Source: Georgenia ruanii (lineage in GTDB: Bacteria > Actinomycetota > Actinomycetes > Actinomycetales > Actinomycetaceae). Taken from it: DNA of 46,300 nt. Both the position numbers and the translations under genes were made by a program. The notes under the pieces were generated by a model that made no database searches, was not told the DNA's origin, and saw only the letters and a list, made by a program, of their open reading frames with translations. The stretch spans positions 1-46,300 of the forward strand of contig NZ_VUKE01000028.1 in assembly GCF_009193175.1 (NCBI RefSeq), written 5' to 3'. Position 1 is the stretch's first letter. Each line of letters begins with the position of its first letter. Positions 24,294-43,700 of this stretch are shown here, piece by piece.

Positions 24294-24318
24294 CGCGCCG
24301 CGAGGCCCTCGCCCCGAA

Positions 24319-24376: not shown

Positions 24377-24394
24377 CGTGGGTGCCGCGGACGG

Positions 24395-25982: not shown

Positions 25983-25995
25983 TAGAGTCGGCCGC
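25983..25995 (+). promoter_or_regulatory. Leaderless -10 in front of the metY leader ORF
   Basis: TAGAGT (25983-25988) fits TANNNT and is followed by seven bases and ATG 25996, so the transcript would start at or next to the leader ORF's first codon. Confidence 0.55.
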
Positions 25996-26019
25996 ATGTT
26001 CCGTCGAATGTGCCGCTGA
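25996..26019 (+). CDS. Seven-codon upstream ORF (leader peptide candidate) of metYX
   Basis: ATG TTC CGT CGA ATG TGC CGC TGA encodes MFRRMCR. Two of seven residues are Met and one Cys, both end products or substrates of the pathway below, and it starts at leaderless distance from a -10 box. It is 158 bases ahead of metY and followed by mutually exclusive hairpins. A role as a ribosome-sensing leader is an inference. Confidence 0.5.
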   Translation: MFRRMCR

Positions 26020-26047
26020 CGCGCACGTTCGGCCTGCCCTGATCCCG

Positions 26048-26064
26048 ACGGCCACGCTGGCCGT
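26048..26064 (+). other. Leader hairpin 1 upstream of metY
   Basis: ACGGCCA (26048-26054) and TGGCCGT (26058-26064) form a perfect 7-bp stem with a CGC loop, 28 bases after the leader ORF stop. Confidence 0.55.
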
Positions 26065-26085
26065 GGCCAGGGCCCGACCATCCCG

Positions 26086-26097
26086 GACGTGCACGTC
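26086..26097. promoter_or_regulatory. Perfect 12-bp palindrome upstream of metY
   Basis: GACGTGCACGTC is fully symmetric. It could be a protein site or part of the leader RNA fold. Confidence 0.4.
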
Positions 26098-26099
26098 AC

Positions 26100-26133
26100 T
26101 GCCAGCCCCCTCGCGGGCTGACGGGACCTGGCA
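26100..26133 (+). other. Alternative hairpins just upstream of metY
   Basis: CAGCCC (26103-26108) pairs with GGGCTG (26115-26120). The overlapping TGCCAG (26100-26105) can instead pair with CTGGCA (26128-26133). The two stems exclude each other or stack only after shortening, the pattern expected of an attenuator. Confidence 0.45.
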
Positions 26134-26177
26134 CAGCCGCGGCTCGTTGGCCCGCTCCACCCGAGCAAGGAGCCACC

Positions 26178-28852: not shown

Positions 28853-28941
28853 CCCGGCGAGCCGGCCGGCGCGGGCCTGCTCCTGGGCGAGGGCCTGGCC
28901 GGGCGTGTGGGCGGCCGCCGTCCGCCGTCGGCGCCTCACGG

Positions 28942-28953
28942 CATGATGAGCCC
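28942..28953 (+). promoter_or_regulatory. Possible leaderless -10 of the alpha/beta hydrolase gene
   Basis: CATGAT (28942-28947) then six bases and ATG 28954; there is no clear Shine-Dalgarno sequence. Confidence 0.4.
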
Positions 28954-30093: not shown

Positions 30094-30180
30094 TTGCGTC
30101 GGGGCGATCGGGGCCGCGCGGGCCGGGACCAGGCCCGGGCCCGGGCTCGGCTCGGGGCTCGGGCCTGCTGCGGGCGGTGC

Positions 30181-31353
30181 TCAGCCCCTCCGGCGTCCCG
30201 CGCCCGTGACCCGGCCGGCCGAGGAGAGCAGCTCCGCACGGGCGTCGGCCAGGCTCGGGCCGCCTTCCCCGAAGCGCCACACCCGCCAGCCGTCGACGTC
30301 GTCGCGCCCCGAGGCCGCGGTGGCGGCGAGGTCGGGGTCGTCGAAGGCGGCGCCGCTGGCCAGGCGGAGCAGGCCCTCGGTGGTGAGGGTGGCCTCGTGG
30401 CGCACGCCGCGGCGCAGCTGGACCCAGGCCAGCACGGTGTCGGCGCTCAGGGAGGCGGCGATCCGGGCGAGGTCCTCGGCCGCCGCGCCGTCGCGCTCGC
30501 GCGGGAGCGGCTCGTTCGACACCGGCTCGCGGGCGGCGGCGTGCGTGCCGGCGGCGGCCGCCGGCGAGGCCGCCGAGGCGGCGGTAGAGGGCGACCCGGG
30601 CGTCCGCGGGGTGGCCGCGGACGGCGAGACGGGCGCGGCCGGGGTCGCGGCGGAGGCTGCGGAGCCGGCAGAGTCGACCGGGGAGGCCGGCGACGTCGGG
30701 GTGGCCGGCGACGTCGCGGTGGCCGGCGAGGCCGCGAGCTCCCGCGCCGGGCTGGCCGGCCGGCCGGCCAGCACCCGGCCCGTCTCCACGATCTCGTGCG
30801 GACGCAGCTCGGCGACCTCGAGGAACCGACGCCCGCTGCTCATCTGCCGCAGGGCGACCTCGTGCACGGCCACGCCGTTGGTCGTGAGCGAGCCCAGCGC
30901 GGGGCGCACCTCGTCGGCGACCGAGCCGGCGACGAGGATGAGCCGGGGGCCGGGCGCCGGGCGGGGCGGCATGGACTCGCGGAAGACGTTCCAGTCGCGA
31001 CGGAAGGCACCGACGCCGCGCGGGTAGAGCTCGCCGAGCTGGGTCCAGCCGAGCGAGGAGTTCCGGGCACTGAGCGACAGGGCGGAGACCAGCGCCGCGG
31101 AGTCCAGGCGCTCGACCACCTCGACGGTGACGACCTGCCCGGAGGCGTCCATGGCGGTCAGCCGCGGGGCTGGCGGCGCGGCGCCGGCGCGCGGCGCCTC
31201 CCCGTGCCAGGAGACGGGGAAGAGGGGACGCTGGACCACCTCGAGCACCTGGTCGCGGATGGCCTGGAGAAGATCGGGCTCGAGGTCCTCACCGACCGGA
31301 CGTCCGAACTGCGCGGGGACGAGGCGTCCCTCGTCGAACTCGAAGAACGGCAT
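30181..31353 (-). CDS. RAMA-domain protein (putative modified-DNA reader) with nuclease-like N-terminus
   Basis: The 390 residues fall into three parts. Residues 1-195 look like a divergent restriction-endonuclease-like alpha/beta fold (VVTVEVVERLDSAALVSAL and PRLILVAGSVADEV), but where an E-x-K catalytic pair would be expected there is E78-V-V80. Residues 198-280 are a Pro/Ala/Ser/Thr linker. Residues 300-376 (WVQLRRGVRHEATLTTEG, then AAFDDPDLAATAASG and GWRVWRFGEGGPSLADAR) resemble the RAMA domain thought to read modified bases. Both assignments are by eye. ATG 31353 is preferred because MPFFEFDEGRLVPAQFG looks like a conserved start; an ATG 16 codons upstream is possible. Confidence 0.6.
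   Translation of the reverse strand: MPFFEFDEGRLVPAQFGRPVGEDLEPDLLQAIRDQVLEVVQRPLFPVSWHGEAPRAGAAPPAPRLTAMDASGQVVTVEVVERLDSAALVSALSLSARNSSLGWTQLGELYPRGVGAFRRDWNVFRESMPPRPAPGPRLILVAGSVADEVRPALGSLTTNGVAVHEVALRQMSSGRRFLEVAELRPHEIVETGRVLAGRPASPARELAASPATATSPATPTSPASPVDSAGSAASAATPAAPVSPSAATPRTPGSPSTAASAASPAAAAGTHAAAREPVSNEPLPRERDGAAAEDLARIAASLSADTVLAWVQLRRGVRHEATLTTEGLLRLASGAAFDDPDLAATAASGRDDVDGWRVWRFGEGGPSLADARAELLSSAGRVTGAGRRRG
30514..30762. repeat. Low-complexity linker with 18-bp tandem repeats
   Basis: Codons 198-280 of the RAMA-domain gene. Bases 30685-30738 hold three head-to-tail copies of an 18-bp unit starting GGCCGGCGA. Confidence 0.7.
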
Positions 31354-31463
31354 GCGTCGTAGACCTGACCTCGCAAGGAAGTGGATGGAAGCTGTCCCCA
31401 TCCTCTCACGCCCGGGCGGAGCCGGGGGGCCGCGGTGCTGCGGCGACCGGCGCCCTCAGGCGC

Positions 31464-34430
31464 CTACCGCTCCCCCGCCAGCAGCTGGGCGAGGTGGACG
31501 CCGTGGCGGCCGGCGAGCTGCTCGGCCTGGGTGCGGCAGGAGAAGCCGTCGGCGAGGTAGACGGTCTCGGGGGCGGCCTCGCGCAGCGCGGGCAGCAGGG
31601 CGTTCTCGGCGACGGCGACGGAGGTGTCGTAGTGGCCGGCCTCCATGCCGAAGTTCCCCGCCAGGCCGCAGCAGCCGGCCAGCGTGGTCACCCGCGCGCC
31701 GGCCCGGGCCAGCAGCGCGGCGTCGGCGTCCCAGCCCATGACGGAGTGGTGGTGGCAGTGCGGCTGGGCGACCACCTCGACACCCTCGAGGGATGGCGGC
31801 TGCCAGTCCGGCCCGGGCCCGACCGGGGCCGGGGCGGTGAGCAGCTCGGCGAGGGTGTAGGTCTGCCCGGCCAGCATGGGCGCGCGCGGGTCCTCGGGGA
31901 GCAGGTCGAGCAGGTCCGAGCGCAGCACGGCGGTGCAGCTCGGCTCGACCCCGATCACCGGGATGCCGTTGGCCGCGTACGGGGCCAGGACGGCGAGTAG
32001 GTCGCGCAGGCGTCTGCGGGCGCCGTCGAGCTGGCCGGTGGAGATCCAGGTCAGGCCGCAGCAGGCGGGGTCCTCAGGGACGATCACGGTGTAGCCGGCG
32101 CTCTCGAGGACACCGACGGCGGCCCGCGCCCCGGCGGTGTCGAGCGTCTCGGAGAAGGTGTCCGCCCACAGCACCACGAAGCGCGGCGCGTCGGGGTCGC
32201 GCGAGGTGCGGCCCGCGGCAGGGGCCGGTGCGACGGCCGCGGCATCCGCCGGCGCGGCGGGCGCCGGCTGGGCCGCCGCGTCGGCGTGAGCCGAGGGCGT
32301 CCCGCCGGGCCGGGCTGCGCCGTCGTCCCGGTCCTTCCACCAGGTGGAGAAGCGCTCCTCGGCGAAGGTGACGACGTGGCGGCGGGTGTCCATGCCGCCG
32401 GCCCAGAGCACGGCCTGCTCCAGCGGCCGGGCTTTGAGGACGGTGTTGGCGAGCTTGGCCAGGGGTGGGACGGCGGTGAGCATCCGGGTCCAGCGCGGCA
32501 GCTGGCCGAGGAGGTAGTGGTTGCGCGGGCGGAGCTTGCCCTGGTAGCCGCGGTAGAGGACCTCGGACTTGTACTTGGCCATGTCCACCCCGGCGGGGCA
32601 GTCGGCCGAGCAGGCCTTGCACGACAGGCACAGGTCGAGGGAGTCGATGACGGCCGGGGAGTTCCAGTCCCGCACGAGGGAGCCGTTGGTCAGCTCCTGC
32701 AGCACCCGGGCGCGGCCGCGGGTGACGTCCTTCTCGTCCTTGGTGGCCCGGTAGCTCGGGCACATGAAGCCGCCCGAGCTCGAGGTGTCGGCGCGGCACT
32801 TGCCCACCCCGGTGCACCGGTGCACCGCGGTGGCGAAGTCCCCGCCGTCCTCGGTGAAGGCGAAGCCGCCGCGGGCGGGGGTGCGCCGGGCGTGGGGCCG
32901 GCGCAGGTCGGCGTCGAGCGGGGCGGGGTCGACGACGACGCCGGGGTTGAGGTGGTTCTCGGGGTCGAAGAGGGCCTTGACCTTCCCGAACAGGTCGAGG
33001 ACCTCCGGGGCGTACATCCGGGCCAGCAGCTCCGAGCGGGCCCGGCCGTCGCCGTGCTCGCCGGAGAGGGACCCGCCGTAGGCGGCCACCAGGTCGGCGG
33101 AGGCCTCGAGGAAGTCCCGCGAGGGGCCGATGCCGGCGCGGGTCTCCAGCGGCAGGTCCAGGCGCACGTGCACGCAGCCGTCGCCGAAGTGCCCGTAGAG
33201 CAGCCCGTCGACGTTGCGCTCGCGCATGAGGGCGGTGAAGTCGCGCAGGTAGTCGCCGAGCTTCTCGGGCGGGACGGCGGCGTCCTCCCAGCCCGGCCAC
33301 GCCGGCGCGTTCGCCGGGGTGCGCCCGCCCAGGCCGGCGCCGTCGGCGCGGATGCGCCACAGCGCGGCGGCCTGCGCGCCGGCCGGGACGACCCGGACGG
33401 CGTCGGTGCCGGCGTCGGCGGCCAGGGCCCGGGCGCGGGCGAGCACGTCGGCGTCGGTCTCGCCCTCGGCGGCGCCGACCTCGACCAGCAGCCAGCCGCC
33501 GCCGGCGGGCAGCTCGGGCACCGCGGCGGGGCCGTGGTGGCGGCGCACCACGTCGACGAGCTGGGCGTCCAGGCCCTCGACGGCCAGCGGGTTGTGGGCC
33601 AGCAGCGCGGGGACGGCGTCGGCGGCGGTGGGCATGTCGGGGTAGCCCAGGGCCACCACCACCGGCGCCGTCGGCACCGGGACGAGGTTGACGGTGGCCT
33701 GCAGGATGGTCACGAGGGTGCCCTCGGTGCCCACGAGCATCTTGGCCAGGTCGGTGCCGTGCTCGGGCAGCAGGTGCTCGAGGGAGTAGCCGGAGACCTG
33801 CCGGCCGAAGCGGCCCAGCGCGGTGCGGATGGTGGCGAGGTGGGCGCGGACCAGGGCGTCCAGGCCGGGGACGGGCTCGAGGCTGCCGGCGCCGGCGGTG
33901 AAGCGGCGGCCGGTTCCGTCCACCACGTCGAGGGCGGTGACGTTGTCGGCGGTGCGCCCGTAGGCCACCGCGTGCGGGCCGCAGGCGTTGTTGCCGATCA
34001 TCCCGCCGAGAGTGGCGCGGTTCTGGGTGGAGGGGTCGGGGCCGAAGCGCAGCCCGTGCGGGGCGGCCACCGCCTGCAGGCTCGACAGCACCACGCCCGG
34101 CTGGACGACGGCGGTGCGCGCCTCGGGGTCGAGCGCGACGATCTGGTTCATGTGCCGGGAGAAGTCCAGCACCACGCCGGTGCCGACGGCGTTGCCCGCC
34201 ACCGAGGTGCCGGCGCCGCGGGCGGTGACCGGGACCTCGAGGCGGCGGGCGACGTCGAGCGCGGCCAGGGCGTCGTCGCCGTCGCGGGGGGCGACGACCA
34301 CCCGGGGCGGCACCCGGTAGTTCGACGCGTCGGTGGAGTACTCGGCCCGGCGCCGGTCGGAGTCGTCCACCTCGCCGTCGACGGCGGCCCGAAGGGCCGC
34401 GGTGACGTCAGTCGTTGTCAGCGCAGTCAC
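31464..34430 (-). CDS. FAD- and 4Fe-4S-binding dehydrogenase, YdiJ-type (candidate D-2-hydroxyglutarate dehydrogenase)
   Basis: The 988-residue protein has an FAD_binding_4 domain (about 30-180, ARGAGTSVAGNAVGTG and LGGMIGNNACGP), an FAD-oxidase C-terminal domain (about 250-510, YGHFGDGCVHVR), a dicluster 4Fe-4S domain (about 545-640, CTGVGKCR and CLSCKACSADCPAGVDMAK) and CCG cysteine-rich domains (CCGLTW and CCGLAGNFG). This order and length match E. coli YdiJ, a D-2-hydroxyglutarate dehydrogenase; D-lactate dehydrogenases share parts of it. The DUF1338 gene nearby, whose family product is D-2-hydroxyglutarate, favours that substrate. GTG 34430 is chosen because MTALTTTDVTAAL starts the homologous region; GGGAG is upstream. 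Confidence 0.85.
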   Translation of the reverse strand: MTALTTTDVTAALRAAVDGEVDDSDRRRAEYSTDASNYRVPPRVVVAPRDGDDALAALDVARRLEVPVTARGAGTSVAGNAVGTGVVLDFSRHMNQIVALDPEARTAVVQPGVVLSSLQAVAAPHGLRFGPDPSTQNRATLGGMIGNNACGPHAVAYGRTADNVTALDVVDGTGRRFTAGAGSLEPVPGLDALVRAHLATIRTALGRFGRQVSGYSLEHLLPEHGTDLAKMLVGTEGTLVTILQATVNLVPVPTAPVVVALGYPDMPTAADAVPALLAHNPLAVEGLDAQLVDVVRRHHGPAAVPELPAGGGWLLVEVGAAEGETDADVLARARALAADAGTDAVRVVPAGAQAAALWRIRADGAGLGGRTPANAPAWPGWEDAAVPPEKLGDYLRDFTALMRERNVDGLLYGHFGDGCVHVRLDLPLETRAGIGPSRDFLEASADLVAAYGGSLSGEHGDGRARSELLARMYAPEVLDLFGKVKALFDPENHLNPGVVVDPAPLDADLRRPHARRTPARGGFAFTEDGGDFATAVHRCTGVGKCRADTSSSGGFMCPSYRATKDEKDVTRGRARVLQELTNGSLVRDWNSPAVIDSLDLCLSCKACSADCPAGVDMAKYKSEVLYRGYQGKLRPRNHYLLGQLPRWTRMLTAVPPLAKLANTVLKARPLEQAVLWAGGMDTRRHVVTFAEERFSTWWKDRDDGAARPGGTPSAHADAAAQPAPAAPADAAAVAPAPAAGRTSRDPDAPRFVVLWADTFSETLDTAGARAAVGVLESAGYTVIVPEDPACCGLTWISTGQLDGARRRLRDLLAVLAPYAANGIPVIGVEPSCTAVLRSDLLDLLPEDPRAPMLAGQTYTLAELLTAPAPVGPGPDWQPPSLEGVEVVAQPHCHHHSVMGWDADAALLARAGARVTTLAGCCGLAGNFGMEAGHYDTSVAVAENALLPALREAAPETVYLADGFSCRTQAEQLAGRHGVHLAQLLAGER

Positions 34431-34453
34431 GCCTGCAGTCTCCCAGCACGGAT

Positions 34454-34468
34454 GTTGATGCACACAAC
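34454..34468. promoter_or_regulatory. Operator-like GTTG-N7-CAAC upstream of the YdiJ-type gene
   Basis: GTTGATGCACACAAC lies 24-38 bases ahead of the start codon. The 4-bp arms are symmetric; the site resembles GntR/FadR-type operators in general form only. Confidence 0.3.
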
Positions 34469-34535
34469 TGCTCGCCGGGGGCAGGCGCCACCGACGCGAC
34501 CATGAGGGAGCCCCGCCGACGCGCACCGCGAGGAG

Positions 34536-35729
34536 TCATGCGCGGGCGCTGAGGTCCGGGCCGCGGCGCAGGATGTAGGTGTGCAGCCGCGAGAGGGCCT
34601 CGGCGATCTCTGCGTCCGCACCCGCGAAGGCCAGCCGCAGGTGCCCCTCCCCACCCTGGCCGAACGCGGAGCCCGGGGTGACCGCGACGCCACCGTGCTC
34701 CAGCAGGTCGAGCGCCAGGGAGGCCGAGCTGGCGGAATAGGCAGAGAAGTCCGGCAGTGCCTAGAAGGCTCCGGCCGGTTGCTCGCACGTCACGCCGGGG
34801 ATGTCGCGGAGCGTCGCCACGACCAGGTCGCGGCGCCGCTGGTAGGCGTCGACCATCTCGCGGAGCTCGTCCTGCGGCCCGGTCAGCGCTGCGATGCCCG
34901 CGCGCTGGATCGGGACCGGCAGGTTCGCGAGGGTGCCCTCCTGGATCTCGGCCATCACTGCCACCACAGGTGGGGCGGCGATAGCCCATCCCAGCCGCCA
35001 ACCCGTCATCGCGTGGCTCTTCGACAGCGAGCTGACCACGATGACGTGGTCGAGGTCGCCGGCGAGAGTGGCCGCGGAGACGTGCCTGCGGCCGTCGAAG
35101 AGGATCTGTTCGTAGACCTCGTCCGAGATCACGGTGAAGCCGTGAAGGCGGGCGAGGTCGACCATCGCGAGGACGTCGTCGTCATCCATGACCGTGCCGA
35201 GCGGGTTCGAGGGCGAGTTGAGGACGATCGCGCTCGTCCGGTCGGTGATGCGTTCAGCCACGTCCGCGGCGCGCAGACGAAAGCCCTCTTCCTTTCGCAC
35301 GGGGACCGGTACTGCCCGCGCTCCGACGGCGTGGACCTGCCCCAGGTAGTTGGGGAAGCACGGGTCCGGCACGAGGACCTCGCTGCCGGGCTCGACCATG
35401 AGCAGCAAGGACAGCTGCAAGGCCTGCATCGCGCCACCGGTGATCATCACGTTCCGGTGCTCGACCGGCAGCCCCCACCGTGCCGAGTAGGTCTCGGCGA
35501 CGGCGTTCCTCAGCCCCGCGATGCCGGCGCTCGCGTCGTACCGGGTCTCCCCCGCCTGGACGGATTCGATCGCGGCCCGACGAACGTATGCGGGCGTGTG
35601 GAAGCTCGGTTCGCCGATCGCGAGCGACACCACATCGGGACGAACAGCCGTGAGGTCGAACATCGCACGGATCTGCGAGCGCGGGTAGCTCAGCGCCATG
35701 GACGACATGCGCGCGGTCGACTCGAGCAA
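34536..35729 (-). pseudogene. PLP aminotransferase class I/II, interrupted by an in-frame TAG
   Basis: Codons 1-322 encode a fold-type I aminotransferase with SLAIGEPSFHTPAYV, SPSNPLGTVM, ISDEVYEQILFDG and the PLP lysine in SLSKSHAMTGWRLGW. TAG at 34763-34761 stops it in PAGAF-stop-ALPDFSAYS; the frame then continues for 74 normal codons to TGA at 34536, ending in GGEGHLRLAFAGADAEIAEAL. Relatives have an aromatic residue at that place, so one base change explains the lesion. Truncation removes the small C-terminal domain with the substrate-carboxylate arginine (HLRLAF). TTG 35729 is the likely start because GGAGG lies six bases upstream; ATG 35708 is the alternative. In context it could be the 2-aminoadipate aminotransferase. 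Confidence 0.85.
34761..34763 (-). other. In-frame amber codon in the aminotransferase gene
   Basis: TAG replaces the codon for the aromatic residue expected after PAGAF. Sequence on both sides is in the same frame and conserved. Confidence 0.85.
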
Positions 35730-35932
35730 CGTGTTCCTCCTGTCGTCCTCGGCCGGGACGGGCCGTGTCCGGCCGCCACCGAGAGCTGGTCGAGCACCCG
35801 CACGCCGTGGATGGCCTCGCCGAGGTTCTCTGGCCGGGCGGCGGGCTTGTCGTCCGGACGTCGCGGTTCGTCGACGGGCACATGGTCGTAGGACTCCACG
35901 TCTGCCTCGGCCGGTCGGCAGGTCTCGGTCAC
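35690..35932 (-). CDS. Small ORF between the cyclodeaminase-like and aminotransferase genes
   Basis: GTG 35932 overlaps the upstream stop by GTGA and the frame runs 80 codons to 35690, overlapping the aminotransferase start. The first about 58 codons have strong G/C third positions, as in real genes; the last 20 are Arg/Cys-rich and probably not meaningful. The protein starts MTETCRPAEADVESYDHVPV and I do not recognise it. It may be a real small protein, a decayed gene remnant, or chance. Confidence 0.35.
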   Translation of the reverse strand: MTETCRPAEADVESYDHVPVDEPRRPDDKPAARPENLGEAIHGVRVLDQLSVAAGHGPSRPRTTGGTRCSSRPRACRPWR

Positions 35933-36903
35933 CGATGCCCTCCACGGTGGATCTGGTTGGCGACGACGAGGTCCTCCCACGGCATCCCCGTGCTCTTGAA
36001 GAGCCGGGGACGTCGCGGTAGCTCCGCGGGTGCGGTCACGAGCTCGCGCAAGGTCATCAGGGCTTCCTCGCTCATGGCCCCCTCGGCGATGGCCAGGACC
36101 ACGTCACCGGCCTCGCGCAGGGCACTGCTTCGGGACTCGACGACGACGGTCGAGCGTGTGACCAGTCGGGAGTCGACCTCCCGGGCGTCGGGCGTGTGGG
36201 CGCCCATGGCCACGACCACGGCGTCGTCCCGGACGGCCGCGCCGTCGAAGAGCGGTTCGCGCGCGTTCGTGCAGCAGCAGATGAGGTCGGCCTCGGCGAC
36301 GGGGTCGCCCTCACCGGCGAGCTTCGTGTCGAGCGGCAGCTCGCGGACCTCGCCCTCCCGGACGAACCACTCCAGGGCCTCGGGATCTCGGCCGACCACG
36401 GTGACCCGGGCAAGTTGCCGCACAGCTGCCATCGCTCCGAGGTGTGCCCGCGCCTGCGGCCCGGTGCCGAAGATGGTGAGACTCGCCGGTGCCGCGCCCT
36501 CGGGGGTGAGATGTCGGACGGCCAGCGCGGAGACCGCAGACGTGCGCAGGTTCGTCAGCGCGATGCCGTCCAGGAGCGCGACCGGGGACTGGTCCGCCCC
36601 CTCGAACAGCACGTAGACCCCCTGGATCACCGGGAGGCCCCGAGCGGGGTTGTCGTGGGTCAGTGTCAGCAGCTTGACCCCGGAGGCCTCGGCCATGGCC
36701 GAGGGCATGACGAGCAGGTCGCCGGTCTCGGTCCGCACGCGGGAACGCGGCGCGTCCGACTCAGGATCCAGGCCCAGCCGGAGAGCGGCGCCGAGCGCGT
36801 CTACCGCGTCCACCACAGAGGCGCTCGCGGCCATGTCGGCCGACGAGTACATGCGAACGCTTGTCGCGCCGTCTCTTGCGGCAGCTGCAGGTCTCATTGA
36901 CAT
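35929..36903 (-). CDS. Ornithine cyclodeaminase/mu-crystallin family enzyme
   Basis: The 324-residue NAD(P)-binding protein shows the family core: substrate-side GVKLLTLTHDNPARGLPVIQG (with the conserved Lys), LRTSAVSALAVRHL, and the Rossmann loop IFGTGPQARAHLGAM near 135, ending FKSTGMPWEDLVVA. Family members cyclise ornithine to proline or lysine to pipecolate, or reduce cyclic ketimines such as piperideine-2-carboxylate. With ALDH7 and DUF1338 genes nearby, a lysine- or piperideine-type substrate is more likely than ornithine. Start is uncertain: ATG 36903 is chosen, with ATG 36921 and 36897 also possible. Bases upstream carry the putative operator. Confidence 0.82.
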   Translation of the reverse strand: MSMRPAAAARDGATSVRMYSSADMAASASVVDAVDALGAALRLGLDPESDAPRSRVRTETGDLLVMPSAMAEASGVKLLTLTHDNPARGLPVIQGVYVLFEGADQSPVALLDGIALTNLRTSAVSALAVRHLTPEGAAPASLTIFGTGPQARAHLGAMAAVRQLARVTVVGRDPEALEWFVREGEVRELPLDTKLAGEGDPVAEADLICCCTNAREPLFDGAAVRDDAVVVAMGAHTPDAREVDSRLVTRSTVVVESRSSALREAGDVVLAIAEGAMSEEALMTLRELVTAPAELPRRPRLFKSTGMPWEDLVVANQIHRGGHR

Positions 36904-36913
36904 TCCATTTCTC

Positions 36914-36943
36914 GACAACATTGTCAGACGGAATCATTCAAGG
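36914..36943. promoter_or_regulatory. Putative operator upstream of the cyclodeaminase-like gene
   Basis: GACAA-CA-TTGTC (36914-36925) is a near-perfect palindrome and is followed by GACGGAATCATTCAAGG (36927-36943). The second part recurs in the LysR divergent promoter with the same orientation. The DNA is clearly less GC-rich than its surroundings. Confidence 0.55.
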
Positions 36944-37010
36944 AATGGGACATTTCTGTCAGCGAATTATGGATGGCGGCAGACGGGCGGGCACCGGTGA
37001 CCGTTCCCTC

Positions 37011-38144
37011 TCAGACCAGGAGGCCGGTGCGCAGCTTCGTCGCCTGACGGACTCGCTCCTGGGCAAGTTCACGCGCGACCGCGTGCGACGTGCGCGTGCC
37101 GGCGAGCGTCCGGCCCAGGATCTCCGCCGTGTTCGCCCGGATCGAGCGGGACACGGCCTCGAAGACGGGCTCCGGTTGCACGGGGAACGGCGAGTGCCGC
37201 GCGTCCATGGCGAATCCCGCCGCGACGGCGCCCCCGCCGTTGGCGATGAAGTCGGGAACGACGGCGACGCCCCGGGCGCGGAGCACCTCCTGTGCCGCGG
37301 CGTCGGTCGGCATGTTGGCACCCTCCACCACGAGCCGGGCGGAGATCCTGCCGGCGACGTCGGCATCGATGACGTCCTGCGTCGCTGCGGGGATCAGCAC
37401 CTCGCAGGGCAGGAGAAGCTCGCTGCCGAGCGCGCCGACGGACGTGCCGTATGCCAGGACGCAGTCGTCACCGTGCTCGTCCCGCAGGCGCAGAAGCCGG
37501 TCCACATCGAGACCGTCCGGCTCGTGCAGGACGCCCCGCGCCGAGGACACGGCCACGACCGTGGCGCCGAGGTCGGCGAGCCGCCGGGCCGCGTGCGCAC
37601 CGACCGCCCCGAAGCCCTGGACGACGACGCGTGCGTCGCGCAGCGTGATACCGAGCGCCTCGGCGGCGGCGTCGGCTGCCTCGGCGACGCCGAAGCCGGT
37701 GACCCCGAGCCGGTCGTAGGCCAGCCCGCCGAGCGCCTCCGGCGTGCCGACCGCAGCGCTGCGGGTGCGGGTCTCATCGAGCAGGATGGCGGCGTCCTGC
37801 TCAGTCAGCCCCATGTCGAGACCGAAGACGTACTCGGCCGGTACCTCGTTGGACAGCGCGCGGGCGAAGGCCCGCAGTGCGTCCGGCTTGGACGCCGAGG
37901 CCGGGTCGTACCGGATCCCCGCCTGGGCGCCTCCGAAGAACAGGTTGAGCGCCGCCCACTTCCAGGTCATGGTGCGGGCCAGGCGGGCGACTTCCTGCAC
38001 GGTGACGTCCGGGGCCATGCGGGTGCCGCCCTTGCCCATACCCCGTGCGGTGTTGTCGATGACCAGGACGCCCTGCATCCCGGTGCGGCGGTCGGAGACG
38101 CAGACCACCTTCTCGGGGCCCCACTCGTCCATCAGCTCGAACAC
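37011..38144 (-). CDS. Glu/Leu/Phe/Val dehydrogenase-like protein with catalytic Lys replaced by Gln
   Basis: The 377 residues match the amino-acid dehydrogenase family: GMGKGGTRMAPDVT (35-48), MTWKWAALNLFFGGAQAG (59-76), the Rossmann loop VVQGFGAVGAHAARRL near 195 and VEGANMPTDAAAQEVL with PDFIANGGG near 300. In active relatives the segment reads GGAKAG or GGGKGG, and that Lys is the catalytic base; here codon 74 is CAG (Gln). The other conserved Lys (62) and the Asp of LDMG are kept. It may have a different chemistry, a regulatory role, or be inactive. By context it would oxidatively deaminate 2-aminoadipate. GTG 38144 has GGGAG upstream and lies 16 bases after the ALDH stop. Confidence 0.82.
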   Translation of the reverse strand: MFELMDEWGPEKVVCVSDRRTGMQGVLVIDNTARGMGKGGTRMAPDVTVQEVARLARTMTWKWAALNLFFGGAQAGIRYDPASASKPDALRAFARALSNEVPAEYVFGLDMGLTEQDAAILLDETRTRSAAVGTPEALGGLAYDRLGVTGFGVAEAADAAAEALGITLRDARVVVQGFGAVGAHAARRLADLGATVVAVSSARGVLHEPDGLDVDRLLRLRDEHGDDCVLAYGTSVGALGSELLLPCEVLIPAATQDVIDADVAGRISARLVVEGANMPTDAAAQEVLRARGVAVVPDFIANGGGAVAAGFAMDARHSPFPVQPEPVFEAVSRSIRANTAEILGRTLAGTRTSHAVARELAQERVRQATKLRTGLLV

Positions 38145-38160
38145 GGATCTCCCTCTCGAG

Positions 38161-39693
38161 TCAGGCAAAGTTGACGCCCTGCGCGAGGGGCAGCTCGTCG
38201 GAGTAGTTGACGGTGTTCGTCGCGCGGCGCATGTAGGCACGCCAGGCATCGGAACCGGACTCCCGCCCGCCGCCGGTGGACTTCTCGCCGCCGAACGCGC
38301 CGCCGATCTCAGCCCCGGAGGTGCCGATGTTGACGTTGACGATCCCGCAGTCGGACCCCGCCTCGGAGAGGAACCGCTCCGCCTCGCGCTGGTCCCTCGT
38401 GAAGATCGACGACGACAGGCCCTGCGGCACGCCGTTGTGGATCTCGATCGCCTCGTCCAGCGTCCGATAGGTCATCACGTACAGGATCGGCGCGAAGGTC
38501 TCCTCCGTGACGAGCGCGCTCTGGTGCGGCATGCGCACCAGGGCCGGGCTCACGTAGACGGCCCCGGGGGCCGCCGGCACCTCGACCGTCTCGCCTCCCA
38601 CGACGACCGTGCCACCGTCGTCCACCGCCCGTTCGAGCGCGGCACGCATCCTGTCTCGCGAGGCGGCGTTGATGAGCGGCCCGACGAGGGTGCCCTCGGC
38701 CCGAGGGTCACCGACGGGCAAGCCGCGATACGCCGTCGCCAGGCGGGCGACGACGTCATCGACGATGTCCTCGTGGACGATGAGCCGACGCATCGTGGTG
38801 CACCTCTGCCCGGCGGTCCCGACAGCGGCGAACACGATGCCTCGCACGGCGAGGTCCAGGTCCGCCGTCGGCGCGACGACGGCGGCGTTGTTGCCGCCCA
38901 GCTCGAGCAGGTAGCGGCCGTTGCGGGCCGCGACGAGGGGACCGACCTGCGCTCCCATCCGCTCGGAGCCCGTCGCCGAGACCAAGGCCACGTGCCGGTG
39001 CTGGACGAGCGCCTCGCCCACGTCACGCGCGCCCAGGACGAGGCGGTGGAGGTCACGGGGCGCGTCGCTGTCGGCGATGGCACGGTCCAGGAGCGCCGCG
39101 GACGCGATCGAGACCAGCGGTGTCATCTCTGACGGCTTCCAGACCACCGGGTCGCCGCACACGAGCGCGACCGCGGTGTTCCAGGACCACACGGCGGCCG
39201 GGAAGTTGAAGGCACTGATGACGCCGACGACACCGAGCGGGTGCCAGGTCTCCATGAGCCGGTGCCCGGGACGCTCGGACGGCATGGTGCGACCGCCGAT
39301 CTGGCGGGAGAGCCCGACGGCGAGGTCGCAGATGTCGATCATCTCCTGGACCTCGCCGAGCGCCTCGGAGGTGATCTTGCCGGCCTCGATGGTGATGAGC
39401 TCGGCCAGGTCGGCCTTGTGGTCGGTGAGCAGCTGGCCGAGCCGCTTGACCAGCCCCCCCCGCACCGGTGCCGGCACCGAGCGCCAGGTGAGGAACGCCC
39501 GGTGGGCCGCACGGACGGCGCTGTCGACGTCCGCCACGCTGGCCGCGGGAAGCTCGAGCAGGTTCTGCCCTGTCAGGGGCGACCGGGCGTGCAGCGTGGG
39601 GCCGTCACCGGCGGTCGGGACGGACGCGCCGATGCGCTCGAGCGCCGCCAGCGCCGTGGCAGCGAGGTCGTGGGTGATCGATGTCGTGGTCAT
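38161..39693 (-). CDS. Aminoadipate semialdehyde dehydrogenase (ALDH7 family)
   Basis: This 510-residue NAD-dependent aldehyde dehydrogenase has the catalytic Cys298 in GTAGQRCTTMRR and Glu264 in LELGGNNAAVV. GVISAFNFPAAVWSWN near 157 and the C-terminal GTSGAEIGGAFGGEKSTGGG with SDAWRAYMRRATNTVNYS are hallmarks of ALDH7 (antiquitin/AmaB), which oxidises 2-aminoadipate 6-semialdehyde (in equilibrium with piperideine-6-carboxylate) to 2-aminoadipate in lysine breakdown. ATG 39693 has GGAGG upstream and overlaps the DUF1338 stop by ATGA. Confidence 0.9.
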   Translation of the reverse strand: MTTTSITHDLAATALAALERIGASVPTAGDGPTLHARSPLTGQNLLELPAASVADVDSAVRAAHRAFLTWRSVPAPVRGGLVKRLGQLLTDHKADLAELITIEAGKITSEALGEVQEMIDICDLAVGLSRQIGGRTMPSERPGHRLMETWHPLGVVGVISAFNFPAAVWSWNTAVALVCGDPVVWKPSEMTPLVSIASAALLDRAIADSDAPRDLHRLVLGARDVGEALVQHRHVALVSATGSERMGAQVGPLVAARNGRYLLELGGNNAAVVAPTADLDLAVRGIVFAAVGTAGQRCTTMRRLIVHEDIVDDVVARLATAYRGLPVGDPRAEGTLVGPLINAASRDRMRAALERAVDDGGTVVVGGETVEVPAAPGAVYVSPALVRMPHQSALVTEETFAPILYVMTYRTLDEAIEIHNGVPQGLSSSIFTRDQREAERFLSEAGSDCGIVNVNIGTSGAEIGGAFGGEKSTGGGRESGSDAWRAYMRRATNTVNYSDELPLAQGVNFA

Positions 39694-41054
39694 GCTCGGA
39701 CCTCCAGGTTCGAGACGATCTCATCCGGTGTGGTGCCGTGCTGCTGGGCGACCTCACGCAGCGACGCCTCGCTCTGCCTGGCGTAGAGCTCGAAGGGGTC
39801 GTGCAGGTCGCGCTCGAGCGCGCCGGCCATCCAGTCAGCGTCGAACGCGGCGCCCTCCTGGCTGGTGTCCTTGGAACCCTCTGCTGTGAGGTTGGACTGG
39901 AAGATTCCCGCCGCGGAGCGCGGCAGGAAGTCCTCGTAGACGATGGGCTCGGCGACGACGTCCTCGCCGTCGGCCCGGTAGGTGAAGTAGGCGAGCCCCT
40001 GGGCGGCGAGGACGGCCTCGCTCGTGGGGAACGCTCGGCGCCAGACCTCGCGGGCGGTGTCCTGTCGCTCCGCTGCGCTCAGCCCGCGTGAGCGCTCGTC
40101 CGCCGCAGCGACGGCGTCGTCGTAGAGCGCGCGGCCCTTCCGCGTGAGTGCGATGCCGCGCGCCTCCACCTCGCCGAAACGCACCCGGAGCGATCCCATC
40201 TCGACGGAACCGTCCGGCATCCGGAACGTGCGCGGCTCTTCCAGCGCCCGGAAGGACGTCTGGCGCAGCAGCACGTCGGGACCCTCCCAGCGCGGGGGCC
40301 CCTGGATGTCGTCGATCATCCGGATGCCCCGCTGCTCCATGCGGGCGTAGAGGTCGTCGATGTCCAGCACCCGCGGGGTGAGGTGGTTGATGTGCGTGGT
40401 AGTGACTCCGCCGATGTCCGCGGCCACGGCGGAGACGGCCTCCAGCTCGTCGTACCAGGCGCGGTCCACGGGCTCGGCCGACAGCTCGAAGGATGCCGTG
40501 GCCAGCTCGAGGAAGCGCTCGGCGTCCGCGCCGCTCAGGCCCCCGTCGGCCTCAGCACGGTCGGCGAGCCGGAGCAGCTCGGGCGGGAAGAGCTCGCGCT
40601 TGCCGAGGAAGGTCTCCAGCCGACGCTGGAGGTCGGGGGAGAAGAAGCGGCGGTCGGACGGGGCCAGCATCGACGTGAACACCCGGAACGGGTTGAGCGC
40701 GAGCTCCTCGGCGTCGATCGGACGGAAGGCCGTCGAGATGACCGGGACCGCGCTGCTCGCCGCCTCTCGCAGGTCGTAGAAGCCCACGGGATACATCCCC
40801 ATGGCGCCGAAGATCCGCGCGAGCTGGGCCATCTCCCTGGGCGTACCCACGCGTATGGCGCCGTGCCTCTCAGCGGTGACCCGGCCGATGCTGCCCAGGC
40901 GCTCGGCGTCCGCGCCGAGCCGGGCGACGACGTCGGCGTTCACCTGGTGGGAGACGTCGAGCAGGGTGGTGTAGGCGGGCACCTCCGTGCCGTACATGTC
41001 GGAGAGGCTGCGGGCGAAGGCAGCACGCAGCTGCCACGGCGGGACGTCGACCAC
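39690..41054 (-). CDS. DUF1338 protein, 2-oxoadipate dioxygenase/decarboxylase (HglS type)
   Basis: The 454-residue protein belongs to the VOC-fold DUF1338/YdcJ family. The characterised member HglS of Pseudomonas putida uses Fe(II) and O2 to convert 2-oxoadipate to D-2-hydroxyglutarate. Expected active-site residues are visible: His64 and Arg68 in ERHGAIRVG (same four-residue spacing), a His in HINHLTPR (221-228) and Glu295 in RFGEVEARG. GTG 41054 has GAGGAGG upstream; the gene lies 17 bases after the FAD oxidase stop and overlaps the ALDH7 gene, fitting consecutive pathway steps. Confidence 0.9.
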   Translation of the reverse strand: MVDVPPWQLRAAFARSLSDMYGTEVPAYTTLLDVSHQVNADVVARLGADAERLGSIGRVTAERHGAIRVGTPREMAQLARIFGAMGMYPVGFYDLREAASSAVPVISTAFRPIDAEELALNPFRVFTSMLAPSDRRFFSPDLQRRLETFLGKRELFPPELLRLADRAEADGGLSGADAERFLELATASFELSAEPVDRAWYDELEAVSAVAADIGGVTTTHINHLTPRVLDIDDLYARMEQRGIRMIDDIQGPPRWEGPDVLLRQTSFRALEEPRTFRMPDGSVEMGSLRVRFGEVEARGIALTRKGRALYDDAVAAADERSRGLSAAERQDTAREVWRRAFPTSEAVLAAQGLAYFTYRADGEDVVAEPIVYEDFLPRSAAGIFQSNLTAEGSKDTSQEGAAFDADWMAGALERDLHDPFELYARQSEASLREVAQQHGTTPDEIVSNLEVRA

Positions 41055-41071
41055 GGGACAGTCCTCCTCGG

Positions 41072-42244
41072 TCAGATGATGTTGGCTTCGGACACGGCGG
41101 CACTGCGGCTGAAGCGATCGGCACTGAAGGGTGAGACGTCGACGAACGGAGCGCGGCCGGTGTAGAGGTCGCGGACCACCTCACCCACCGCCGGCGCCTG
41201 GACGAACCCGTGGCCGGAGAAGCCGGTGGCGTACAGGAAGCGGTCGACCGACGCGGCCTCTCCGAGGAGGGCGTTGTGGTCCGGGGTCATCTCGTAGAGA
41301 CCAGCCCAGCCGCGCTCGACCTCCATGTCGGCGAGGGACGGGCAGCAGCGGGCTGCGGAGTCGTGGAGCAGGGGGAGCCAGGTCTCGTCGTATCCGCGCT
41401 CGAAGCCGACCGCCTGCGCCGGGTCGGCGATCCCCATGAGCAGGCCCTCGCCGGCGTTGTGGAAGTAGAGGGTGGTGCCGAAGTCGATGGTGAACGGGAT
41501 GACGGGCGGCCGGGGCGAGAGTGGCGGGCTGAAGGCGATCTGGCGCCGCACGGGCACCACCGGCAGGTCGACGCCGACCATCTGGCCGATCCGCTCGGAC
41601 CATGCGCCGGTCGAGCAGACCACGGCGCCGGTCGACACCGTGCCGCGCGAGGTGACGACAGCGGTGATGCCGCCGTTCGCGACGACGATCTCCTCCACGG
41701 CGCATCCGGTGCGCACCTGGGCGCCGAGCCGCTGCGCAGCGGTGACATAGCCGGCGACCACGCGTTCCGGGTACGCCCAGCCGTCCTCCGGAGAATAGGC
41801 GGCCGCCGCATACCTCGAACGGTCGATATAGGGGCAAAGCCGCAGCGCCTCGTCCATGTCGATGATCCGGCTGGGCACACCCTGGGCGTTCTGCATCGCC
41901 ACGCTGTGCCTGAAAAGCTCGACGTCGGCGTCGGTCGGCAGGAGAAAGAGATATCCCACCCGGCGCAGCCCGATGTCGCCGCCCGGCCGGCTGGCGAAGT
42001 CGGCGTAACGGGTCAGGCTCCTTGCGCCGAGCGCAACGTTGAGGGGGTCGGAGAACTGGGCGCGCACGCCACCGATGGGTTTGCCCGAGCTGCCCGACGC
42101 GAGCGCATCGCGCTCGAGGAGCAGCACGCCCACCCCTGCCTCGGCGAGGTGGAACGCCACAGAGGAGCCGATGACGCCGCCACCGACGATCACCACCTCC
42201 GCGTGAGGAGGCAGGGGTCCCCGCTGATGCGCCGTGTCTGCCAT
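41072..42244 (-). CDS. FAD-dependent amine oxidase/dehydrogenase (DAO family; candidate L-pipecolate oxidase)
   Basis: The 390-residue flavoprotein starts with a dinucleotide-binding loop VVIVGGGVIGSSVAFHLAEAG near 16-36 and ends with the DAO signature LYEMTPDHNALLGE and ATGFSGHGFVQAPAVGE. Such enzymes oxidise secondary or primary amines such as sarcosine, dimethylglycine or pipecolate. The neighbouring ALDH7 and DUF1338 genes favour L-pipecolate, giving piperideine-6-carboxylate, the ALDH7 substrate; this is inference. ATG 42244 has GAAGGAG six bases upstream. It is the first gene of the minus-strand cluster, divergent from the LysR gene. Confidence 0.85.
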   Translation of the reverse strand: MADTAHQRGPLPPHAEVVIVGGGVIGSSVAFHLAEAGVGVLLLERDALASGSSGKPIGGVRAQFSDPLNVALGARSLTRYADFASRPGGDIGLRRVGYLFLLPTDADVELFRHSVAMQNAQGVPSRIIDMDEALRLCPYIDRSRYAAAAYSPEDGWAYPERVVAGYVTAAQRLGAQVRTGCAVEEIVVANGGITAVVTSRGTVSTGAVVCSTGAWSERIGQMVGVDLPVVPVRRQIAFSPPLSPRPPVIPFTIDFGTTLYFHNAGEGLLMGIADPAQAVGFERGYDETWLPLLHDSAARCCPSLADMEVERGWAGLYEMTPDHNALLGEAASVDRFLYATGFSGHGFVQAPAVGEVVRDLYTGRAPFVDVSPFSADRFSRSAAVSEANII

Positions 42245-42314
42245 GCGACTCCTTCGTCGAACCTCCGGCGGCCCCCATTCTGCAGAGTGAGCGCTATTAA
42301 GATCTATGGATAGT

Positions 42315-42337
42315 TTGTCGACGGAATCGTCTAAGTT
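42315..42337. promoter_or_regulatory. Putative operator and leaderless -10 in the LysR divergent promoter
   Basis: TTTGTC then GACGGAATCGTCTAAG (42320-42335), which contains GACG-GAAT-CGTC, lies between the divergent genes. TAAGTT (42332-42337) followed by six bases and ATG 42344 forms a leaderless -10 for the LysR gene, so the element overlaps its own promoter, as in autorepression. The region from 42293 to 42340 is AT-rich. Confidence 0.6.
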
Positions 42338-42343
42338 ATCTGG

Positions 42344-43270
42344 ATGGTGGACTTGCCGTGGCCCGCGCTCCGATCGCTTTGCGCGCTGGTCGAACGCGGC
42401 ACGATGACAGCGGCCGCGGAGAAGCTCGGTTACAGCACCGGGGCCGTGTCGCAGCATCTCGCCACGCTCGAGTCCGCCGTCGGCGCTGCGCTGCTGACGC
42501 GACGAGGCCGTAACGTCGTGCCGACGGACGCGGGCCTTCTCCTCGCCACCCGTGCCGCTCGCCTCCTCGAAGACCAACGCGTGGCGCTCCAGCAGGTCAA
42601 TGACACGTCCGGAAAGGTCGCCGGCACCGTGCGCCTAGGGATGTTCGCGACCGTGGCGGCGAGCTTGCTCCCCGCGATCGTCGAGCAGCTCGCCAGCCGC
42701 CTTCCGGACGTGGCGCTGGAGAGCTACGAGATCGCCGTGGACGACATCACGTCCACCGTCGCTCGCGGCGACGTGGACCTCGGCCTCGGCCTGGACTATC
42801 CCAGCGCGCTCATCCCCCGTGAGCGCGGTACGGCGCTCGAGCTGGTCCAGCGGGAGACGTTCTCGCTGGTGACGGCACGTCCGGCCACGCTGCCGAAACG
42901 GGTCGCGCTCTCCGACGCCGCCGACCTGGACTGGATCCTCCCGCCCGCCCACACCCACTTCGGCCTGGCCGTCCGCTCCGCATGCCGGCAGGCCGGTTTC
43001 GAGCCGCGGGCCGTTCACGAGGTCAACGACACCGCAACCTCGCTGGCCCTGGTGGCTCAGGGGCTCGGGGTGGCGCTGGCGACGCCGCTCATGCTGCGGC
43101 TCACCCGGGCCGACGCCCTGTGCCTGAGCGAGCTCGAGGCGCGCGTCGAGCGGCACCTGGTGCTGGTGCAGCCCGAGGGTGGATCCGCCCGACGGTCCGT
43201 GGCCGCCGTCACCGAGGTGATCAGAAAGGTCGCCGCGCAGGCCGTGCCTGTCATCGGTCACCGGTCTTGA
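42344..43270 (+). CDS. LysR-family transcriptional regulator
   Basis: The 308-residue protein has an N-terminal winged helix-turn-helix (residues 5-65, ALVERGTMTAAAEKLGYSTG then AVSQHLATLE) and a periplasmic-binding-like effector domain from about 90. Divergent placement from the FAD oxidase gene and a shared operator-like element suggest it controls the cluster, with a pathway compound such as lysine, pipecolate or 2-aminoadipate as effector (inference). It appears to be leaderless. Confidence 0.92.
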   Translation: MVDLPWPALRSLCALVERGTMTAAAEKLGYSTGAVSQHLATLESAVGAALLTRRGRNVVPTDAGLLLATRAARLLEDQRVALQQVNDTSGKVAGTVRLGMFATVAASLLPAIVEQLASRLPDVALESYEIAVDDITSTVARGDVDLGLGLDYPSALIPRERGTALELVQRETFSLVTARPATLPKRVALSDAADLDWILPPAHTHFGLAVRSACRQAGFEPRAVHEVNDTATSLALVAQGLGVALATPLMLRLTRADALCLSELEARVERHLVLVQPEGGSARRSVAAVTEVIRKVAAQAVPVIGHRS

Positions 43271-43370
43271 CGTTGCTTCGGTCATCAACCGCGCTGCGCG
43301 CCTCGGAGCCGGGAGGCACGCCGGCCGGGCGGTCTGCCATCGGCCTGTGCGCGCTGCCCGAGACCGCAGT

Positions 43371-43383
43371 GCCCCGCTGGGGC
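43371..43383. terminator. Small hairpin between LysR and feoA-like genes
   Basis: GCCCC-GCT-GGGGC lies in the 134-bp space between converging genes. The stem is only 5 bp and no T-tract follows. Confidence 0.3.
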
Positions 43384-43404
43384 GGGTTGCACCAGCTGTC
43401 CTGA

Positions 43405-43638
43405 TCAGCGCACGTGCTGCGGGATCAGCGCGACGCCGACCCGGCGGGCGGTCGCGGCGTCGAGGACCATCCGGGCCCCGGCCACGGCCACCGCCACCCC
43501 GCCGAAGGCGGCGCGGCCGGTGACCCGCAGGCGCACGCCGGGACGCAGCCCGACCCTGAGCAGGGGCGGCAGGGCCGCCCCGCCGGCCACGCCGACCACC
43601 CGCACCTCGGCGCACTCACGGCACTGCGAGAGCCTCAT
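43405..43638 (-). CDS. FeoA-domain protein
   Basis: The 77-residue protein is a single SH3-like FeoA domain (LRVGLRPGVRLRVTGRAAFGGVAVAV). FeoA normally assists the FeoB ferrous iron transporter at its cytoplasmic face, but no feoB is adjacent, so it may act elsewhere or on a distant FeoB. Two N-terminal Cys (CRECAE) are notable and might bind metal. ATG 43638 follows TAGCCT by six bases, a leaderless arrangement. Confidence 0.75.
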   Translation of the reverse strand: MRLSQCRECAEVRVVGVAGGAALPPLLRVGLRPGVRLRVTGRAAFGGVAVAVAGARMVLDAATARRVGVALIPQHVR

Positions 43639-43650
43639 GGATCGAGGCTA
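43639..43650 (-). promoter_or_regulatory. Leaderless -10 of the feoA-like gene
   Basis: On the minus strand TAGCCT (43650-43645) precedes ATG 43638 by six bases; no Shine-Dalgarno sequence. Confidence 0.55.
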
Positions 43651-43700
43651 GGAACGTCCGGCATGGCTTGGGGGGACGATGGTCCCGCTCTCACCCGGGG

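Follow-up and report, generated by a model that had tools for sequence, protein, structure and literature searches.

A predicted actinobacterial lysine/pipecolate route with alternative exits at 2-oxoadipate on a genomic island of Georgenia ruanii

The Georgenia ruanii contig NZ_VUKE01000028.1 (C20 in our numbering) was analyzed over its complete length of 46,300 bases, referred to here as the window; the genome comprises 4.42 Mb in 36 contigs. The window carries an island with genes for an FAD amine oxidase/dehydrogenase (FAO), a DUF1338 protein (HglS), an aldehyde dehydrogenase (ALDH7), a Glu/Leu/Phe/Val-type (ELFV) dehydrogenase, an enzyme of the ornithine cyclodeaminase (OCD)/mu-crystallin family, an aminotransferase and a LysR-type regulator, beside a gene for a YdiJ-type dehydrogenase. 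This island likely encodes, in an actinobacterial form, the breakdown of lysine or pipecolate to 2-oxoglutarate. Within the loci examined, HglS and a glutaryl-CoA-type gene set are mutually exclusive exits at 2-oxoadipate. Furthermore, we lean, by a small degree, toward a modular actinobacterial route that relies on two new enzymes and whose exits were repeatedly swapped. One would be an FAO that resembles proline dehydrogenase and uses pipecolate, the other an NAD(P)-dependent enzyme of the Glu/Leu dehydrogenase superfamily dedicated to L-2-aminoadipate. In G. ruanii, this module would lie beside a resident D-2-hydroxyglutarate dehydrogenase, with its own ELFV protein dead or repurposed.

In the proposed route, the alpha-amino group of lysine would be removed by the aminotransferase, and cyclization would give Delta1-piperideine-2-carboxylate, which the OCD-family enzyme would reduce to L-pipecolate. 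FAO would convert L-pipecolate to piperideine-6-carboxylate, from which ALDH7 would form 2-aminoadipate. Deamination by the ELFV dehydrogenase would yield 2-oxoadipate, HglS would use O2 to convert it to D-2-hydroxyglutarate, and the resident adjoining YdiJ-type enzyme would complete the route to 2-oxoglutarate. In other actinobacteria, FAO and ELFV would operate with varying sets of E1, thiamine diphosphate (ThDP) decarboxylase, CoA-transferase and glutaryl-CoA dehydrogenase genes that replace HglS. Every substrate and reaction assigned in this organism, above all for FAO, the OCD enzyme and the aminotransferase, is a proposal drawn from sequence and modeled structure.

Conserved gene association and exits at 2-oxoadipate

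An earlier note, made from the DNA sequence, had interpreted the region as a gene set for lysine/pipecolate breakdown that includes HglS and ALDH7. Both assignments were upheld, since the two proteins scored above curated family cut-offs (Table 1). The lysine/pipecolate direction of breakdown was supported as well. Residues H64, H224, E295, R68 and S380 of HglS align with H70, H226, E294, R74 and S403 of Pseudomonas putida HglS (6w1g), for which the metal triad and the specificity residues are named in PMC7286885. The His-His-Glu metal triad, the specificity Arg and the counterpart of Ser403 are all kept. The best reading of HglS is a predicted 2-oxoadipate dioxygenase/decarboxylase that yields D-2-hydroxyglutarate. 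For ALDH7, the best solved relative was 6rtr, "Semialdehyde dehydrogenase Pcd" (764 bits), and the protein is best read as a predicted piperideine-6-carboxylate/2-aminoadipate semialdehyde dehydrogenase.

The window ELFV protein was used to scan 84,980 species genomes, which contained at least 412 relatives; the best 80 of these 412 loci, mostly 21 kb in length, were kept and scored by tblastn with fixed thresholds. HglS was found in 32 of these 80 loci and a glutaryl-CoA/decarboxylase exit in 28, while none contained both and 20 contained neither. Among the 28 glutaryl-type loci, glutaryl-CoA dehydrogenase was present in 18, CoA-transferase in 16, a fused E1 2-oxoacid dehydrogenase in 10 and a ThDP decarboxylase in 11. 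ELFV identity was below 57% in 9 of the 20 loci with no exit, some of them archaeal; for the 71 loci with an identity of at least 57%, the counts were 32 (HglS), 28 (glutaryl type), 0 (both) and 11 (neither). Within the best 80, the HglS-type loci came from 19 named genera and 14 families and the glutaryl-type loci from 10 named genera. With this distribution, a one-locus version in an actinobacterium can no longer be regarded as new, as the earlier note had supposed. FAO was present in 27/32 HglS loci and in 29/48 others. ALDH7 occurred in 29/32 HglS loci and 6/48 others, and a second ALDH type was seen in 21/48 others.

The order FAO-HglS-ALDH7-ELFV-YdiJ of the window, with no OCD or aminotransferase gene between, recurred in L032, L036, L040, L054, L057 and L074; in L062 this order is broken ahead of YdiJ by a transporter gene, and in L076 by a gene of similar length. 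Three of the 32 HglS loci (L015, L020 and L063) contained HglS and ELFV without FAO or ALDH7 in the surrounding DNA and thereby link ELFV to the reaction that immediately precedes HglS. Since HglS is replaced by glutaryl-type sets beside the same FAO and ELFV, 2-oxoadipate would be the node of the swapped exits. Five further loci from other genome draws (all four carriers of the order draw apart from the genome's own, and the single carrier of the phylum draw) each showed a single exit, which was HglS in L125, L126 and L127 and E1 with glutaryl-CoA dehydrogenase in L124 and L180. L126 also supplied one query (a GlcD-type protein), and L125 is less independent, since 8.5 kb of its DNA are 87% identical to L040. 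For the remaining four loci, the highest identity to any match was below 81%, barring a 110-base piece of L126. The acyl-CoA dehydrogenase of L006 matched glutaryl-CoA dehydrogenase 3swo with 614 bits, the best model for its CoA-transferase was NF052585 (succinate--glutarate CoA-transferase; score under the cut-off), and a 705-amino-acid protein of L003 contained E1 and transketolase domains. On a quick ELFV tree with 23 open forks and without L125 and L180, the exit label switches 6 times; this figure belongs to this tree, and no more than 3 switches of the glutaryl label are required by branches with good support. The exit swap was probably not a single event.

The KGG motif of glutamate dehydrogenase (GDH) is kept in the window ELFV and its listed relatives, and the genome's own Leu/Val-like paralogue (L099) has LGG. 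We take the lysine of this motif to contact the distal carboxylate of a dicarboxylic amino acid. At the position of the GDH serine, the window ELFV and close relatives have alanine, and the best curated GDH equivalog score was 184 bits against a cut-off of 620. The swapped exits, the loci with HglS and ELFV alone, and the KGG motif together would place ELFV at the conversion of 2-aminoadipate to 2-oxoadipate, and its relatives are probable NAD(P)-dependent L-2-aminoadipate dehydrogenases. The earlier note had recognized an amino-acid dehydrogenase-like gene but had given it no role; the comparative evidence points to the 2-aminoadipate step. HglS was found in 7/200 family genomes and the ELFV type in 5/297 order and 2/396 phylum genomes, with the own genome included each time. 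Given this rarity, one would not expect chance to bring the two together within ~10 kb. Among the titles and abstract beginnings listed in a literature search, outside of which most subscription papers lay, none described an ELFV-type 2-aminoadipate dehydrogenase or these actinobacterial clusters. Within the scope of this search, the probable 2-aminoadipate dehydrogenase may be new, as may the FAD enzyme akin to proline dehydrogenase that accompanies it and the mutual exclusion of the two exits.

All eight genes named in the earlier note were found at 31464-43270 on the strands it gave, including the divergent LysR gene and the adjoining YdiJ-type gene (Table 1). Its "tight minus-strand order" applies to FAO-HglS-ALDH7-ELFV (17 bp between FAO and HglS, a 4-bp overlap of HglS and ALDH7, ~7 bp between ALDH7 and ELFV) but not to the OCD and aminotransferase genes, which are flanked by gaps of ~90-220 bp that vary with the chosen start. 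The OCD gene is separated from the aminotransferase gene by ~220 bp (35709-35928), and a short open frame overlaps the OCD stop. Downstream of ydiJ, 30181-31401 encodes a RAMA-domain protein (PF18755); a relative with 55-82% identity lies beside ydiJ in 8/8 genus-mates. The gene at the right island edge presumably belongs to a FeoA-like type, judged by eye.

Table 1. Positions of genes and of the island in the window, with family matches and proposed reactions
Feature	Position	Strand	Family match, proposed reaction or remark
FAD amine oxidase/dehydrogenase (FAO)	41072-42244	-	DAO family, PF01266; proposed L-pipecolate to piperideine-6-carboxylate
HglS/DUF1338	39690-41054	-	PF07063, 452 bits (cut-off 25); NF050083, 723 bits (cut-off 600); proposed 2-oxoadipate to D-2-hydroxyglutarate
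ALDH7	38161-39693	-	NF050084 L-piperidine-6-carboxylate dehydrogenase, 797 bits (cut-off 730)
Glu/Leu/Phe/Val-type (ELFV) dehydrogenase	37011-38153	-	PF00208/PF02812; copy without catalytic lysine
OCD/mu-crystallin family enzyme	35929-36852	-	PF02423; proposed Delta1-piperideine-2-carboxylate reductase yielding L-pipecolate
Class I/II aminotransferase	34538-35708	-	PF00155; in-frame TAG at 34763-34761
YdiJ-type FAD/4Fe-4S dehydrogenase	31464-34430	-	FAD_binding_4, FAD-oxidase_C and Fer4 domains; resident
LysR-type regulator, divergent	42344-43270	+	PF00126/PF03466
77-amino-acid resident gene, right island edge	43405-43638	-	96% identical in genus-mate G007, directly beside ydiJ
Island	34410-43404		Present here; the closest genus-mates lack it at this site

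Entry enzymes, final step and regulator

The best solved relative of FAO by sequence was 1y56_B, chain B of the Pyrococcus horikoshii L-proline dehydrogenase (205 bits). The FAO model (mean predicted local distance difference test [pLDDT] score, 93.6) matched the same chain in Foldseek with an E value of 5.6e-41 and template modeling (TM) scores of 0.88/0.92, and the next relatives were sarcosine oxidases, one of them solved with L-proline. FAO failed the AmaA L-pipecolate oxidase model NF050086, with 55 bits against a cut-off of 600. Because a proline dehydrogenase is nearest and pipecolate is the six-ring homologue of proline, pipecolate is the preferred substrate, and we infer that FAO acts on L-pipecolate, either as an oxidase or as a dehydrogenase.

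The best NCBIfam model for the OCD protein was the Delta1-piperideine-2-carboxylate/Delta1-pyrroline-2-carboxylate (P2C/Pyr2C) reductase NF004793, with 178 bits, under the cut-off of 322. The Delta1-pyrroline-2-carboxylate reductase 6t3e came first both by sequence and in the fold search (model pLDDT, 90.4), in which 3hdj, a "probable ornithine cyclodeaminase," held rank 4, the P. putida ornithine cyclodeaminase 1u7h rank 16 and lysine cyclodeaminase a lower place. The enzyme seems closer to ketimine (Delta1-piperideine/pyrroline-2-carboxylate) reductases than to cyclodeaminases, and the cyclodeaminase-like reading of the earlier note was not sustained. Lysine cyclodeaminase is only a second choice for this gene, since the reductase ranked first and the characterized cyclodeaminases lower by sequence and by fold. 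Relatives of the OCD gene were present in 8/32 HglS loci and in 0/48 others (Fisher p, 0.0004, uncorrected for kinship).

The aminotransferase was dismissed as a conserved partner, with a close relative in 0/80 loci at the tblastn threshold and no close relative of FAO, HglS, ALDH7 or ELFV in five order-draw aminotransferase regions; the sole unit with an aminotransferase relative alongside was that of L126, which also has an OCD relative. In L164, an order-draw OCD region, the OCD relative lies ~5 kb from relatives of CoA-transferase and glutaryl-CoA dehydrogenase. The lysine entry is the weakest part of the proposed route. L-Lysine 6-transaminase (Lat) had no match over the cut-off in the whole genome and was set aside as an entry here. 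In two other genomes of the same family, a Lat gene over the cut-off lies beside HglS and ALDH7 (L120:7995-12186 and L123:6150-10405), so that a single locus offers another way in, with no ELFV. In Arthrobacter sp. VKM Ac-2550 (L020:4514-14135), genes for CapA/CapB-like subunits (caprolactamase/oxoprolinase type, under cut-offs) directly precede HglS-ELFV-YdiJ, possibly a lactam entry into 2-aminoadipate. The own contig C30 (L160:7375 to ~14366) and L168 each hold a second OCD-like gene (63-64%) near a ThDP-enzyme-like gene (27-28%) and a second YdiJ-like gene (44-48%). This cluster was rejected as a part of the pathway; it is common to the genus-mate G007, and close relatives of the remaining pathway genes were not seen in it.

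The YdiJ-type gene was present in 9/9 genus genomes, with 81-94% identity in the six genus-mates in which it was matched as one piece. Its product failed NF049975, with 404 bits against a cut-off of 1350. A YdiJ-type or GlcD-type FAD 2-hydroxyacid dehydrogenase was found in 24/32 HglS loci and in 0/28 glutaryl-type loci, which favors the earlier note's proposal that D-2-hydroxyglutarate is handed to such an enzyme; one locus with no exit, L050, also has a YdiJ relative. YdiJ is replaced by a shorter FAD protein of the GlcD type (~450 amino acids), after ALDH7 or ELFV, in the HglS loci L030, L031, L044, L126 and L047. The novelty claimed for a YdiJ-type final enzyme did not stand, as D-2-hydroxyglutarate dehydrogenase activity has been published for YdiJ of E. 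coli and Pantoea (PMC9504171) and the gene is resident rather than a dedicated part of the set. As a resident gene, YdiJ was rejected as a member of the acquired block, though elsewhere it lies beside HglS; its presence throughout the genus is consistent with a general task in D-2-hydroxyglutarate recycling. A relative of the LysR regulator (at least 38% identity) was present in 10/32 HglS loci and 1/48 others.

State and history of the island

Two lesions affect the deamination genes of the island. The frame of the aminotransferase continues through the codon that is TAG here in 17/17 rows of relatives (14 distinct genes). ELFV has Gln (37923-37925) where 79/79 aligned relatives have Lys, which we take to be the catalytic Lys of GDH. 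Moreover, ELFV carries 7 unique changes at sites that are invariant in 48 relatives, six of them beyond the catalytic lysine, while the next highest count is 2 and the median 0; its end branch measures 0.78 against a median of 0.19. Such changes numbered 0 in HglS, 2 in ALDH7 and 0 in FAO (FAO against 35 relatives), within the range of other species. These counts rest on alignments thinned of rows that shared 88% identity or more with one already kept; they exclude rows below 57% (ELFV, HglS), 60% (ALDH7) or 44% (FAO) identity to the window and rows covering less than 90%. General sequence disorder was discarded as the source of the lesions, since a comparison of seven resident genes (one cut by the contig end) with G007 revealed no in-frame stop. 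Here the island itself probably performs neither of the two deaminations, and the route may not run as encoded, unless other transaminases serve or the sequence errs. The "compact gene set" of the earlier note is thus present but need not work in this genome, as the damage to the aminotransferase and ELFV genes had been missed.

The boundaries of the island were defined by blastn against G007, in which 2962-6835 matches window positions 30599-34409 and 6951-7245 matches 43405-43696; ~115 bp take the place of the ~9-kb island. In the genus-mate G008, both flanks lie ~135 bp apart. The GC content is 0.709 in the island, 0.770 at 20000-34409 and 0.720 in the right flank, so that composition alone does not mark the island. 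No ELFV match above 39% identity was found in the 8 genus-mates, and HglS was found in one of them (G003). The HglS of G003, 83% identical to that of the window, belongs to another cassette (L134:9831-19998 and L119:1-12181), whose other genes look by eye like a three-part molybdenum hydroxylase set, an ABC transporter, RidA, an LLM-type protein and an amidohydrolase. This cassette shares a contig with the ydiJ of G003 and ends beside a relative of the 77-amino-acid edge gene; it suggests that HglS can serve outside lysine breakdown. The island may have been gained once and partially lost, or gained twice.

Several observations weigh against the proposed route. Many of the 80 loci are kin (Lentzea, Arthrobacter), the tblastn thresholds were set after the identities had been inspected, and the exit query proteins were themselves taken from these 80, which means that the first count lacked blinding. 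The locus counts cover the DNA around each locus, and the other exit could sit elsewhere in the genome; they rest on tblastn, as the codon-usage script used for gene calls in relatives missed some genes (e.g., in L125). Neither exit was found in 11 of the 71 close ELFV loci, and the five other HglS loci retrieved from the same family (L119-L123) all lack ELFV, with L121 ending at the contig end after ALDH7; HglS and ELFV are thus not paired everywhere. FAO, ELFV, the OCD protein and YdiJ all score under the cut-off of their best NCBIfam equivalog. The low count of OCD genes and the lack of close aminotransferase relatives in the 80 loci make for a weak lysine entry, and neither the order-draw aminotransferase regions (L161-L163, L169 and L170) nor the order-draw OCD regions (L164-L167 and L171) contain a close relative of FAO, HglS, ALDH7 or ELFV. 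Finally, the two lesions speak for a broken route in this genome or for errors in the assembly.

The weak entry bears most directly on a possible, though doubtful, alternative, namely, that the cluster serves pipecolate/2-aminoadipate utilization, with pipecolate or another cyclic amine being imported and the OCD and aminotransferase genes being unrelated neighbors. The recurrent tight unit is indeed FAO-HglS-ALDH7-ELFV, OCD and aminotransferase genes are infrequent or absent around it, genes that look by eye like ABC transporters turn up repeatedly near the loci, and the CapA/CapB-like subunits, under cut-offs, adjoin HglS-ELFV-YdiJ in one locus. However, the restriction of OCD relatives to HglS loci speaks for a link, as does L126 (from the same genome as L169), where aminotransferase and OCD relatives lie near a unit of the FAO-HglS-ALDH7-ELFV type. 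It is improbable that FAO oxidizes lysine or an N-substituted lysine directly to the semialdehyde, in the manner of an N6-alkyl lysine oxidase, and so bypasses pipecolate. Oxidases of N-methyl amino acids do belong to the DAO family, and we know of no pipecolate enzyme in the FAO subfamily; the proline dehydrogenase and sarcosine oxidases nearest to FAO, however, act on secondary, partly cyclic amines.

A further explanation concerns the state of the island and not its ancestral function. That it is a decaying remnant, acquired and now losing its deamination genes while HglS, ALDH7 and FAO are still constrained, has nearly even chances. The in-frame stop, the excess of ELFV changes, the island-free site in the nearest genus-mates and the lack of Lat over the cut-off elsewhere in the genome all fit such decay. 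In contrast, the low counts for HglS, ALDH7 and FAO do not, general transaminases could supply both steps, and a sequence error is possible. Least likely of all is that ELFV has taken on another task here, non-catalytic or with an altered substrate, with the aminotransferase as its replacement: the ELFV frame is full-length and 58-68% identical to closer relatives in spite of the Lys-to-Gln exchange and six other unusual changes, but the supposed replacement is itself interrupted and no second Gln was seen among the 79 relatives. Lysine/pipecolate breakdown remains the likely reading of the module. If this is correct, a branch of the Glu/Leu/Phe/Val dehydrogenases that is common to many actinobacterial genera and without an assignment would gain a testable function, as would the proline-dehydrogenase-like FAD enzyme. 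Which exit lysine breakdown takes, D-2-hydroxyglutarate or glutaryl-CoA, could then be compared gene by gene, and a module whose product is consumed by an adjoining resident gene would be informative on how such routes are acquired.

Comparison with known systems

One of the closest known systems is the D-lysine route of P. putida, of which AmaA, AmaB and an aminotransferase are parts. It shares with the proposed route the HglS chemistry and residues and the sequence from 2-oxoadipate via D-2-hydroxyglutarate to 2-oxoglutarate (PMC7286885). In contrast to that route, FAO is no AmaA orthologue by the curated cut-off, the 2-aminoadipate step is assigned here to an ELFV dehydrogenase, and the exits are swapped between species. 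The actinobacterial Lat-Pcd route, known for example from cephamycin producers, which combines L-lysine 6-transaminase with piperideine-6-carboxylate dehydrogenase (PMC9854754), resembles the island through Pcd/ALDH7 (6rtr), and the gene order Lat-HglS-ALDH7 occurs in the two same-family genomes with L120 and L123. The island differs in that its genome has no Lat over the cut-off and the entry would proceed via an FAD amine enzyme. With YdiJ of E. coli and Pantoea, the window protein shares the FAD-linked oxidase and Fe-S domains, but it is not a member of that family by NF049975. Parts of the glutaryl-CoA exit (2-oxoadipate dehydrogenase and glutaryl-CoA dehydrogenase) accompany this ELFV core, in most cases along with FAO, in 28 of the 80 loci; in contrast to the arrangement in the window, from which this exit is absent, they never occur with HglS in these loci.

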